Shown in pieces: positions 8,947 to 12,420 of a stretch of DNA of 64,000 nucleotides. Origin of the DNA: Neptunicoccus cionae (GTDB lineage: Bacteria > Pseudomonadota > Alphaproteobacteria > Rhodobacterales > Rhodobacteraceae); the NCBI RefSeq assembly GCF_002860325.1, contig NZ_PKOJ01000004.1, positions 248,001-312,000 on the forward strand, read 5' to 3'. Position 1 is the first letter of the stretch. Each line of letters begins with the position of its first letter. The notes below the pieces were generated by a model that saw only the letters and a list, made by a program, of their open reading frames with translations, was not told the origin of the DNA and searched no databases. The position numbers were made by a program, and so were the translations under genes.

Positions 8947-9648
8947 TCAAACTGTAATTCGGATCTCGTCCAGAATACCAAACTCCTGTTCCAATGCATG
9001 ATGCAGCTCATCGAAAAGATGGGTTTGTATGTAATTGGCAACAAACCTGCTGGGCGCAAGAATTTCAGCTTTCCGATCTTTGCATACTTTCAAACTCAGA
9101 CGGGAGTACCAGTTATTATGGATCGCCTCGTCTTTGCTTCGGAGAGCCTGTTGGACAGCCCGCCATGTTCCGGATCGTGTTTCCTTAGGTTCAGGTTCAC
9201 TTGAAGGAAGAGAAGCCGCAGCGAAATCGACTTTAACCACATTTTCAACGCGCTGTGGGAAATAGCCAGCCATACGCTCCGCAAAGTCCGGCCCTATGGT
9301 ATCCCATTGGTCGGCGGACAGTTTGGCAATAGCAGCGAGGTTCAGCACATAGGCGCCCACCCTGCCCCGCACGCCCTGCCGTTTGCAGGTCAGGATCTGG
9401 CTGTCGAGCAGCCGCTTTATTTCCCGCTTTACTGTGCGTTCGTTCACAGCCCACATACGGGCCATGTCCCGCTGACCAACTGAAAGTTCGTTCGCACGCC
9501 AGTTATACCGTGCTGTGACCAAAGCAGTCAGTCTGAGAACTGTCATCTGCTGGGTTGTCGTGCCGTTCAACCCGATTAGGGTCAATGCTGTGAGAATGTC
9601 ATACTTTAGCGCCCCGGCCTCGGGGCCGGTTAGTCGCTTGGGTTCCAT
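8947..9648 (-). CDS. DnaA-like plasmid replication initiator (wHTH plus C-terminal DnaA domain I-like module)
   Basis: 233 residues. Residues about 50-100 look like a winged helix (RDMARMWAVNERTVKREI, then a basic wing). Residues about 161-233 read like the N-terminal domain of chromosomal DnaA: a Trp-led helix, NNWYSRL, then ILAPSRFVANYIQ and a final EIRITV strand. The AAA+ and box-binding domains of DnaA are absent. Known context: one of the Rhodobacterales plasmid types uses a 'DnaA-like' replicase next to parAB; this gene is divergent from parA-parB over 395 bp, which fits. Inference: the winged helix binds the origin and the DnaA-like domain recruits helicase. This marks the window as extrachromosomal or derived from such a replicon. 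Confidence 0.78.
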   Translation of the reverse strand: MEPKRLTGPEAGALKYDILTALTLIGLNGTTTQQMTVLRLTALVTARYNWRANELSVGQRDMARMWAVNERTVKREIKRLLDSQILTCKRQGVRGRVGAYVLNLAAIAKLSADQWDTIGPDFAERMAGYFPQRVENVVKVDFAAASLPSSEPEPKETRSGTWRAVQQALRSKDEAIHNNWYSRLSLKVCKDRKAEILAPSRFVANYIQTHLFDELHHALEQEFGILDEIRITV

Positions 9649-9704: not shown

Positions 9705-9832
9705 TCTGTCTGCATTTGGAGGAGGCACGAATTCCCGTTTTTTGTCAATCACTTTGAAATATCGGGAAAAAGAGAGAAAAACTTAAAAAAGAGGAATAGA
9801 TAAGGTTTATTGGTTAAGGGGGACATTCAGGA

Positions 9833-9899
9833 TGTCACCTTATTGGGGCCTCGGTGTCACCTTATTTGCCTGTATAGGCAGGGTTGCTGTCCCCTTATT
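9833..9899 (+). repeat. three iteron-like repeats TGTC(A/C)CCTTATT in helical phase
   Basis: Copies at 9833-9844 and 9855-9866 are identical (TGTCACCTTATT); a third at 9888-9899 differs by one base (TGTCCCCTTATT). Start-to-start distances are 22 and 33 bp, i.e. about two and three helical turns. A degenerate inverted copy (TAAGGGGGACA) lies just upstream at 9815-9825. Likely binding sites for Rep or for ParA autoregulation. Confidence 0.55.
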
Positions 9900-10043
9900 A
9901 TTTATCTTACCCGGCAATTCGACCCGTTTTTCCTGTTTTTCGTCCGAATCGGGGGATTACAGGAAAATATCGAAAATTCGGTTTTGCTCTTTCTGTCAAT
10001 TCCCGTTATTCAACATCTATGTGGCAAAAACAAGAGTAGAGCA

Positions 10044-11354
10044 ATGCGCAACCATAAAGACCTTCAGCAGATGAACGAACGCAGTCTCGCACAACAGGCG
10101 GCGGTCCGGCGTTCAACTTTTTCCCCGGGCGAGGTTAAAACCCTGCGTCCTTTTTCTATATGGGAGATCAGCCAGTTTATGTTTGATGTGTCAGCGGACA
10201 CACTTCGTAAAAAGCTGATGGATGATCCCTCCCTGCCCCAAGGGTCCACAGAAGAAGACGGTCGTCAACGCTGGTTTTCGCTGGAGGAGATTAACGAACT
10301 TCGCCGTCGCGCAAAGTTTCGCGGGAAGACGCTGCTTCCAAAGCGCCCAAAAGGTCGCGCCATGCGGGCGGCGGTTTCAAACTTCAAAGGAGGTGTCGGC
10401 AAGACAGTCGTGGCCCAGCATCTTGCCAATGCGGCGGCGCTCGACGGGTATCGGGTTCTTTGTGTCGATTTCGATCCGCAGGCGACATTGACCCACTCTA
10501 TGGGTCTGACCGAGGTTAAGGAATGGAATACAGTCTGGGGTATCATGTGCCGCGATCTGTGCCGTGAAGCTGACAGGATTATAGAGAGCTACGATGATCC
10601 GGATGATTGCCCCTACCCTTCTTCCGAAGAATTGCCGGATGACGTGCGGTCTATCGGGTCGCAGCGGGTTCAGGATTTTATCCAGCCAACTTGCTGGCCG
10701 ACGATTGATATTATTCCATCCTGCGCCAACGCGGCCTTTGTGGAATTTGCCTCTGCACAGTATCGGGCCTTGCATAAAGCGTGGAGCTTTTTTGGATGTA
10801 TGGCGCGCTATCTTGATGAACTTCCGGACGATCAGTACGACATTATCATTTTCGATTGCCCGCCAGCGATTGGCTATCAATCTCTGAACGCTGCCTTTGC
10901 GGCAGACATTCTGTATATCCCGTCCGGTCCCGGATATTGGGAATATGACAGCACCACCAGTTACCTCGGGCAATTGGGCGATGCGATGGCAGATATATCT
11001 GATGGCTTCGGGGCGCTGGCGGAAGATGCCGGCATCACCCTGCCAAAAGCCTTTGCTGACATTCGCGTTTTGATGACCCGTTTTGAAAACACCAACCCGT
11101 TGCACGCTGCTATGATGGATGCCTTCCGGAACGTCTTTGGGGCGGACGTTTGTCAGAACCCGATCGAAATGACCCGCGCGGTCGAACAATCCGGCAGGTT
11201 CCAAATGTCGGTCTACGAGCAGGACTACCGGCATATGACGCGGGAAACTTGGAAACGGGCGCGGCACAGTTTCGATCGGGCATACGGCGAATTTCTCGGA
11301 ACCGTGCTAGATGCCTGGGACAAAAGAAACGGCAGTGAGGGAGCGAAGCAATGA
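10044..11354 (+). CDS. parA: ParA/RepA-like plasmid partitioning ATPase
   Basis: 436 residues from ATG 10044. An N-terminal MerR-like helix-turn-helix region (about 36-90, ending QRWFSLEEINELRR) is followed by the deviant Walker A box NFKGGVGKT at 113-121, the A' box DFDPQATLT near 143-150 and the Walker B strand IIIFDCPPAIGYQSL. This is the long ParA type that both segregates DNA and represses its own operon. The frame is open to 9810, but that extension would run through the origin repeats, so a start at 10044 (or ATG 10071) is preferred; no strong Shine-Dalgarno decides it. parB follows with ATGA overlap. Confidence 0.9.
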   Translation: MRNHKDLQQMNERSLAQQAAVRRSTFSPGEVKTLRPFSIWEISQFMFDVSADTLRKKLMDDPSLPQGSTEEDGRQRWFSLEEINELRRRAKFRGKTLLPKRPKGRAMRAAVSNFKGGVGKTVVAQHLANAAALDGYRVLCVDFDPQATLTHSMGLTEVKEWNTVWGIMCRDLCREADRIIESYDDPDDCPYPSSEELPDDVRSIGSQRVQDFIQPTCWPTIDIIPSCANAAFVEFASAQYRALHKAWSFFGCMARYLDELPDDQYDIIIFDCPPAIGYQSLNAAFAADILYIPSGPGYWEYDSTTSYLGQLGDAMADISDGFGALAEDAGITLPKAFADIRVLMTRFENTNPLHAAMMDAFRNVFGADVCQNPIEMTRAVEQSGRFQMSVYEQDYRHMTRETWKRARHSFDRAYGEFLGTVLDAWDKRNGSEGAKQ

Positions 11355-12403
11355 CATCAAAAAACAAATTCGGATTTGGCCCTTTAGATACGACCGAACC
11401 TGTTTCTCGCAGATCGCGCAGTGTTGGCCCGATGGGGGCTGCGGTGCGCGAGGCTGCGGATAGTCTGCAGGAAACAACCGAAGCGAAAGTCGAACAGCGC
11501 CGTTTGAATGCACGGGATGCGAAGGAATTTCGGGAAGCGTCACAGCAAGGGCGTGTATTGCAGGCTTTGGACCTTTCGGAAATTTCAACCGATGAATTGC
11601 CCCGCGACCGTCTGGAACTGGAGGCTGTGGCTGTATCCGCTGAGATGGACGAGTTGAAGGCATCCATTCGCGAGCGCGGGCAGAAAGAACCGATCGAGGT
11701 TTTCTTGGGTGCCGACGGGGGGTATCAGTTGAAGAAAGGTTGGCGGCGGTTTACGGCGCTGACCCAGCTTCTGGAAGAAACCGGCGATCCGCAATTTAAA
11801 ACCATTCTGGCGCGGGTGGATCGGGCGGACGATGACCGGATCACACGTTACATTGACATGGTCGAAGAAAATGTTGTGCGGGAGGATCTGACCTTTGCTG
11901 AAATGGCGCAGGTTGTTCTGGCCGCAGCGCAGGACGATCAGGTGGAAGGACGCGACCCCGATGCGCTCGTCGGGCGGCTTTATGCGTCGCTGCACAAAAT
12001 GAAACGCTCTTACATTCGCAGCTTCGTCTATCTGTTGACGACGCTTGGCGATGCGCTGCAATGGCCGAAAGACGTTTCGCGCAACCTTGGAGCTGACGTG
12101 GCGCGGGCGTTGAAGTCGGGGCAGGGCGACATTGCAGAGCTTCGGCAGTCCCTGTCAAACTGTGCGAACCGCGATGCGCAGGCCGCGGTTTTGGCGGCGT
12201 TCGTCTCGGCATCGAAATCCGGCAACGGAACCAAGACAATCAAAAGCGAACCGAAGGAGAAGTTCGAGTTCCACGTCGGTGAATTAAAGGTCACTGCCCG
12301 CAATGGAGAGTGCCGGATCGTCGGGCGGGTTGATTTCGCGGGGGTGCCGAAAGATCAACTGGAGCGGGCCATTCGTGCGTTCAACGCTGCGCTTGGAGAC
12401 TGA
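11351..12403 (+). CDS. parB: ParB/RepB-like partition protein
   Basis: 350 residues. Residues about 85-180 form a ParB N-domain: LKASIRERGQKEPIEVF, KKGWRRFTAL, and the ENVVREDLTFAEMAQ motif that leads into the helix-turn-helix. A C-terminal region of about 60 residues, after a charged linker, may serve in dimerisation. It should bind the centromere (parS) and stimulate the ParA ATPase. Translationally coupled to parA (ATGA). Two 16-bp palindromes start 2 bp after its stop and are the best candidates for its binding site. Confidence 0.9.
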   Translation: MTSKNKFGFGPLDTTEPVSRRSRSVGPMGAAVREAADSLQETTEAKVEQRRLNARDAKEFREASQQGRVLQALDLSEISTDELPRDRLELEAVAVSAEMDELKASIRERGQKEPIEVFLGADGGYQLKKGWRRFTALTQLLEETGDPQFKTILARVDRADDDRITRYIDMVEENVVREDLTFAEMAQVVLAAAQDDQVEGRDPDALVGRLYASLHKMKRSYIRSFVYLLTTLGDALQWPKDVSRNLGADVARALKSGQGDIAELRQSLSNCANRDAQAAVLAAFVSASKSGNGTKTIKSEPKEKFEFHVGELKVTARNGECRIVGRVDFAGVPKDQLERAIRAFNAALGD

Positions 12404-12404
12404 A

Positions 12405-12420
12405 GTAACCCGCGGGTTAC
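12405..12420. promoter_or_regulatory. perfect 16-bp palindrome, candidate parS centromere
   Basis: GTAACCCGCGGGTTAC is a perfect 16-bp palindrome starting one base after the parB stop codon. It agrees at 8 of 10 fixed positions with the repABC-type parS pattern GTTNNCNGCNGNNAAC as I recall it. A second copy, GTAATCCACGGGTTAC (two changes), is at 12433-12448, 28 bp further on. Confidence 0.55.

Follow-up and report, generated by a model that had tools for sequence, protein, structure and literature searches.

How would a protein of 233 residues, ending in a DnaA-like module and lacking an ATPase domain, start the replication of a large replicon? This question was raised by a gene (rep) in the window, by which we mean the whole 64-kb stretch of DNA analyzed here, part of a 369,126-bp contig (C12). 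An initiator made of a DNA-binding domain and DnaA domain I offers a natural case in which to test helicase recruitment without the DnaA ATPase. Rhodobacterales carry many DnaA-like replicons, and the way their replication starts bears on multipartite genomes.

Table 1. Features of the rep locus, with positions in the window
Feature	Position	Strand	Basis and remarks
rep, DnaA-like plasmid replication initiator	8947..9648	-	233 aa; ATG at 9648, stop ending at 8947; ORF and translation, plasmid homologs
N-terminal winged-helix DNA-binding domain, residues 11-128	9265..9618	-	AlphaFold2 model, structural matches, weak profile matches
C-terminal DnaA domain I-like module, residues 161-233	8950..9168	-	Pfam DnaA_N, structural match, conserved W162, W180 and F202
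AT-rich stretch beside iteron D, candidate unwinding element	9739..9813	.	72% AT, against 43% in the window
Iteron D, inverted copy	9814..9825	+	TTAAGGGGGACA on + strand; 14 bp from C (array scan); orientation and spacing kept in many homologs
Iteron C	9833..9844	-	AATAAGGTGACA, + strand TGTCACCTTATT; 22 bp from B; sequence array
Iteron B	9855..9866	-	AATAAGGTGACA, + strand TGTCACCTTATT; 33 bp from A; sequence array
Iteron A	9888..9899	-	AATAAGGGGACA in rep sense, + strand TGTCCCCTTATT; sequence array
parA-type partition ATPase gene, divergent from rep	10044..11354	+	NFKGGVGKT motif in ORF
parB-type partition protein gene	11351..12403	+	ORF overlaps parA stop; weak ParB_N match, E 8.2e-4
16-bp perfect palindrome GTAACCCGCGGGTTAC, candidate centromere	12405..12420	.	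Directly after parB; putative function

Architecture and family of the initiator

The Pfam scan matched residues 161-220 of the rep protein to DnaA_N with an E value of 2.2e-7, above the gathering score, and the same domain was matched in 16 of 16 aligned members of the rep family (best 7e-9). In the AlphaFold2 model (mean pLDDT 78.6), residues 11-128 formed helices and a winged helix (block pLDDT 77-93), residues ~131-159 a disordered linker, and residues 162-232 a helix-helix-strand-strand-helix-strand fold (block pLDDT 81-89). The top structural match for the whole model was domain I of Bacillus subtilis DnaA (4tps_B; Z 11.7, 2.4 A, 78 residues). Domain I of Helicobacter pylori DnaA (2wp0_D) scored Z 9.6, and DciA, a loader of similar fold, scored below these DnaA domain I matches (Z 7.2-7.6). 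With the rep family profile, domain I of chromosomal DnaA was detected across the Alphaproteobacteria (E values down to 1.7e-11), and matches to solved structures of this domain had E values of 7e-4 or weaker. The initial annotation had likened the last ~73 residues to DnaA domain I and placed a winged helix before it. Both assignments were borne out, and the fold of residues 161-233 agreed with that of DnaA domain I.

The N-terminal half gave matches to winged-helix families at sub-threshold scores only. Within it, the recognition region QRDMARMW..V.ERTVKRE was near-invariant in the family alignment. Phage_rep_O and O-like profiles matched this domain weakly; Phage_rep_O did so in six of the 16 members (best 9e-4), the window protein falling below the curated cut-off. 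The structures 4pql and 4pt7, which we take to be of the RepA_N family (pSK41-type), gave middling scores with the winged helix (Z 7.9 and 7.5), not above those of other winged helices, and no RepA_N match was found by Pfam in the rep protein. The structural-match lists (Foldseek, VIA) consisted mostly of generic winged helices and singled out no named initiator family.

Pfam found neither an AAA+ (Bac_DnaA) nor a Bac_DnaA_C (DnaA-box-binding domain IV) match in the rep protein, the DNA-binding domain being the N-terminal winged helix. The Walker A motif was absent from every family member scanned. The earlier description of a protein without an ATPase and without the AAA+ and box-binding domains was therefore correct. 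Its reading as a DnaA in reversed order was not upheld: a fusion between DnaA domain I and an unrelated winged helix, rather than a permuted DnaA, describes the protein best, and its lineage probably never lost the two other domains. An ATPase may still control initiation, because domain I could recruit the host DnaA and because ParA shares the module; both of these are ATPases.

Plasmid homologs were found in 289 records, 288 of them with at least 80% length coverage (E<=1e-5), with E values down to 6e-64. Those among the matches listed came from Rhodobacterales and were usually annotated as 'DnaA N-terminal domain-containing protein'; one was annotated as 'Plasmid replication initiation protein DnaA-like-II'. 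The DnaA-like replicase is one of the standard Rhodobacterales plasmid types, known since Petersen et al. 2011 and divided into groups -I and -II, according to a passage of a later paper that cites that work (PMC9025767). Over its full length, the window protein was 50.7% identical to DnaA-like-II of pDSM110277_b (220 bits) and 40% identical to DnaA-like-I of pDSM110277_c (154 bits). Judged by sequence, it is a member of the Rhodobacterales DnaA-like replicase family, on the DnaA-like-II side; it resembles these replicases over the full length and in the divergent parAB layout, and differs from them only in divergence. The proposal that rep together with parAB marks a replicon of the DnaA-like type was thus sustained. 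The family and its domain architecture are already known, and the arrangement is not unusual.

Among 295 sampled Rhodobacteraceae genomes, nearly all from different genera, full-length homologs occupied 89 places in 79 genomes. Among the matches listed from 385 genomes spread over the class, full-length ones occurred only in the same family, and the C-terminal part of the profile matched chromosomal DnaA domain I throughout. The search of phages returned no full-length homolog and one match, to a Mesorhizobium phage (E 0.05, residues 62-116 only).

Origin region and replicon

The iteron array sits between rep and the divergent parA, and only one further site in the 64-kb window came within one mismatch of the iteron pattern. 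The geometry of the array was conserved, with intervals of 31-34 and 20-23 bp between the direct sites and of 11-17 bp from the last of these to the inverted one. Of 39 non-redundant rep homolog loci, 35 had three or more of the four elements at the correct spacing (19 had all four), as compared with none of 780 dinucleotide shuffles. The array was kept although many of the encoded proteins are merely ~35-60% identical. Its distance to rep varied, and so the geometry itself appears to be what is kept. Sites spaced by 22 and 32-33 bp, about two and three turns of the helix, would lie on one face of the DNA.

The AT content of the adjoining 75-bp stretch was reached by 0.06% of the 75-bp windows in the 64 kb. 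The features of an iteron-type theta origin are thus present: phased direct repeats beside rep, an inverted fourth site and a stretch of 72% AT. The iterons, identified by their sequence, are candidate binding sites of the rep protein. Host DnaA boxes were also considered as conserved parts of these origins and were rejected, since two were observed against 1.2 expected. This suggested that the host DnaA is no conserved DNA-bound part of these origins.

Some further motifs were observed in this region. A candidate ACC-AT-ACCT motif was seen beyond iteron D in 20 of the 39 loci with a loose pattern. Two AATTCCCGTTWTT repeats, at 9730-9742 and 9998-10010, flank the iteron region and are possibly operator sites; one adjoins a candidate TTGACA promoter element of rep and the other lies near parA. 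ACGGGA motifs resembling these repeats also occur in relatives. By eye, the iteron type (GGTGACA or GGGGACA) showed no consistent covariation with residue 69.

A divergent P-loop ORF upstream of rep was recognized by the ParA motif in 27 of 38 loci. The other 11 miss this motif, and two of the three inspected read NFKGGAGKS in the divergent frame. In the annotated plasmids pDSM110277_b and pDSM110277_c, one of each DnaA-like type, an AAA family ATPase is annotated at the place of parA, and the parA-parB order is the same. The palindrome after parB was identical at the matching place in two close relatives (loci L010 and L011). A conserved palindrome in the module is reportedly a feature of Rhodobacterales DnaA-like plasmids.

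The ends of contig C12 overlap directly by ~213 bp, except for a short mismatched stretch mid-way. Such an overlap would arise if the assembler had opened a circular molecule, and the contig, the circularity of which had been left as a point to check, is probably circular. The mismatched stretch may reflect a minor misassembly where the ends meet. No tRNA genes were found on C12. The full-length host DnaA is encoded on another contig (C2), and one strong DnaB match and one DciA were located on C10 and C1, respectively.

The detrended cumulative GC skew of C12 had its minimum at 256 kb and its maximum at ~62-64 kb. When the circle was split into halves at every 1-kb rotation, the arms differed most at 258 kb, which ranked first among the 370 rotations. 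The position of the iteron site is 257.85 kb, and the terminus is near the opposite side. The skew switch fits bidirectional replication from the rep/iteron locus and is independent evidence for an origin there. The replicon, at 369 kb, is most likely a plasmid or chromid of the DnaA-like type found in Rhodobacterales, presumably of low copy number. DnaA-like replicons include essential chromids in Paracoccus (PMC11578231). ParB-like genes on C13 (~299 kb) and C17 (~77-85 kb) suggest further plasmids in the strain. A search of the 64-kb window against Rfam gave no match.

Proposed initiation and its alternatives

We propose that rep encodes the iteron-bound initiator of a low-copy DnaA-like replicon of 369 kb, and assign a probability of about two in three to the model as a whole. 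The winged helix would bind the three direct iterons and the inverted one between rep and parA, and this binding would bend or open the adjoining AT-rich stretch. The bound protein would then display an array of DnaA domain I modules, to which the host DnaB would dock, either directly or through the loader DciA, as it does to domain I of oriC-bound DnaA. Bidirectional theta replication would follow, independently of the host DnaA. The model is favored because of the fold and sequence of domain I, the conserved array, the position of the skew maximum, the lack of DnaA-box enrichment and the retention of the residues equivalent to E. coli F46 and W6. The replicon type given in the initial annotation was right, and the mechanism it put forward, direct recruitment of the helicase, is plausible.

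The DnaB contacts of E. coli domain I are E21 and F46, and W6 has a role in self-association (PMC5448010). In the alignment, the equivalents of W6 (W162) and W25 (W180) were W in all 42 plasmid proteins, and that of F46 (F202) was F in 41. The E21 equivalent was not kept, which counts against docking of DnaB, though it was likewise not conserved among 20 chromosomal DnaA proteins from the family. The equivalents of L5, L10 and L33 were variable in both sets alike. The plasmid domain I thus retains the residues that are retained in the local chromosomal DnaA, which is consistent with the same set of partners but does not point to DnaB in particular.

A tree of 90 domain I sequences, rough because of its few columns, placed the 42 Rhodobacterales plasmid domains on one side of a branch (97/94) and grouped domain I of the Bacillus plasmid pCR3 with B. 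subtilis DnaA (99/91). These groupings are expected if the lineages took domain I from their own kind of host, and we counted them for the model. The closest precedent, also counted for it, is pBS72. The replication of this B. subtilis plasmid reportedly does not need DnaA but depends on RepA, on iterons and on the primosomal proteins that load the helicase; RepA is said to have been predicted to bring the helicase via a DnaA-homologous domain (work attributed to Titok et al. 2006). Two further points count against the model. Loading of DnaB in E. coli also uses DnaA domain III, which is absent from the rep protein. Domain I has other partners in other bacteria, namely DnaA itself, DiaA, HobA and SirA, and helicase docking is therefore not its sole possible role.

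The main rival to helicase docking is that domain I recruits the host DnaA by a contact between two domains I, upon which DnaA would unwind the origin and load the helicase, so that firing would be under the host ATP-DnaA cycle. The invariant W at the key self-association residue of E. coli (W6; PMC5448010) and the weak domain I dimers reported in Actinomycetes (PMC13270200) would fit such a contact. We nevertheless consider it unlikely, since DnaA boxes were not enriched in the origins and the dimer positions L5, L10 and L33 were not conserved; the W may be kept for the fold. In addition, pBS72, which has the same design, is reportedly DnaA-independent.

It is less likely still that domain I serves mainly in regulation or self-association (copy control, handcuffing or a DiaA-like partner), with the helicase recruited by another route, such as the winged helix or a restart pathway. 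The surfaces of helices 2 and 3 of domain I do bind many regulators in different bacteria (PMC5448010), and the loss of the E21 equivalent would agree with such a role. Against it, the occurrence of domain I in several phyla, fused to initiators that differ in their DNA-binding domain, is more easily explained by a shared positive function. We infer that recruitment of the helicase or its loader is the likeliest mechanism for domain I. That rep is no working initiator but a relic, or an ordinary regulator, of the main chromosome is very improbable. Only the small size of the protein speaks for it. The ORF is intact and under strong conservation, with iterons and parAB in place, and its homologs are carried by plasmids (289 records); the location of the full dnaA on another contig, the overlapping ends and lack of tRNA genes of C12, and the skew switch at the locus contradict a relic on the main chromosome, a case that had been raised at the outset.

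Domain I in other initiators

Domain I sequences from three hosts were searched against plasmids and phages, and the matched proteins were scanned for domains. HTH_36 followed by a C-terminal DnaA_N was found in pCR3, pAZOPL1, pDMT04, a Cytobacillus plasmid, pTHECO01, pHT01 and the Brevibacillus phage Jenst, the HTH_36 match being below the cut-off in pDMT04 and the Cytobacillus plasmid. A C-terminal DnaA_N also followed RPA/Rep3-type domains in two Rubrobacter (Actinomycetota) plasmids, one with DnaA_N just under the cut-off, and Rep3_C in Hymenobacter (Bacteroidota). In Ca. Megaera and Rickettsiales Ac37b it followed N-terminal parts with no Pfam match. DnaA_N was at the N-terminus instead in the proteins of pDSM107133_i and a Leptolinea plasmid.

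The different DNA-binding families point to several fusions, whatever the tree. To us the chances appear even that domain I is a portable adaptor to host replication, captured repeatedly by plasmids and at least one phage, mostly at the C-terminus, and that these initiators form a common ATPase-free class that bypasses DnaA and docks the helicase machinery. Its recurrence on different initiators is a candidate general rule for the fit between plasmid and host. As far as the accessible literature goes, three things are apparently new: the conservation of an origin with four sites, the evidence from skew for this replicon, and how widely the domain I module occurs.

The Bacillota initiators of the pBS72/pHT01 type (pHT01 presumably carries the pBS72 replicon) resemble the rep protein in having the DNA-binding domain first and DnaA domain I last. 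They differ in that the DNA-binding domain is of the HTH_36 type and that, in pCR3, domain I falls with the DnaA of Bacillota. Initiators of the lambda O type bind iterons with the N-terminal part and a helicase-loading partner with the C-terminal part. They resemble the rep protein in N-terminal iteron binding, in its case predicted, and its winged helix matched O-type profiles weakly; they reach the helicase via phage P, however, and have no DnaA domain I. The RepA_N initiator of pSK41 also binds repeated Rep boxes by an N-terminal winged helix and contacts the host primosome by its C-terminal domain (PMC5703833); this domain, however, is DnaD-like and binds the primase DnaG. A C-terminal DnaA_N domain had already been noted in the DnaA-like protein (DALP) of Rickettsia plasmids (PMC4316617). 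DALP and the Ca. Megaera proteins are alike in this domain, with a divergent parA adjoining in one Megaera plasmid, but their N-terminal part is longer, very variable and without a Pfam match.

The Bacillota initiators with HTH_36 and domain I were located at L108:1179-2216 and in L138, L139, L140, L141 and L145, including the Rep of the vector pHT01, and that of phage Jenst (L144:967-2010) is near a ParM-like gene. Those of Rubrobacter and Hymenobacter lie at L142:625-2058, L146:595-2046 and L143:1264-2040; the Hymenobacter initiator is apparently split over two overlapping genes. On the Rhizobium plasmid pRlX5 (L109:1563-2747), a truncated frame resembling DnaA covers domain I and the beginning of an AAA+ domain, at a place where no gene is listed. 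In genome G035, a 115-aa ORF on the minus strand of the 153-kb contig C3 (~53.4-53.7 kb; L132:482-829) is essentially a stand-alone domain I close to a parA-like frame, possibly a split or frame-shifted initiator. The Rhodobacterales initiator of pDSM107133_i (L107:1-1203) has the reverse order, with domain I at the N-terminus followed by an RPA replication domain.
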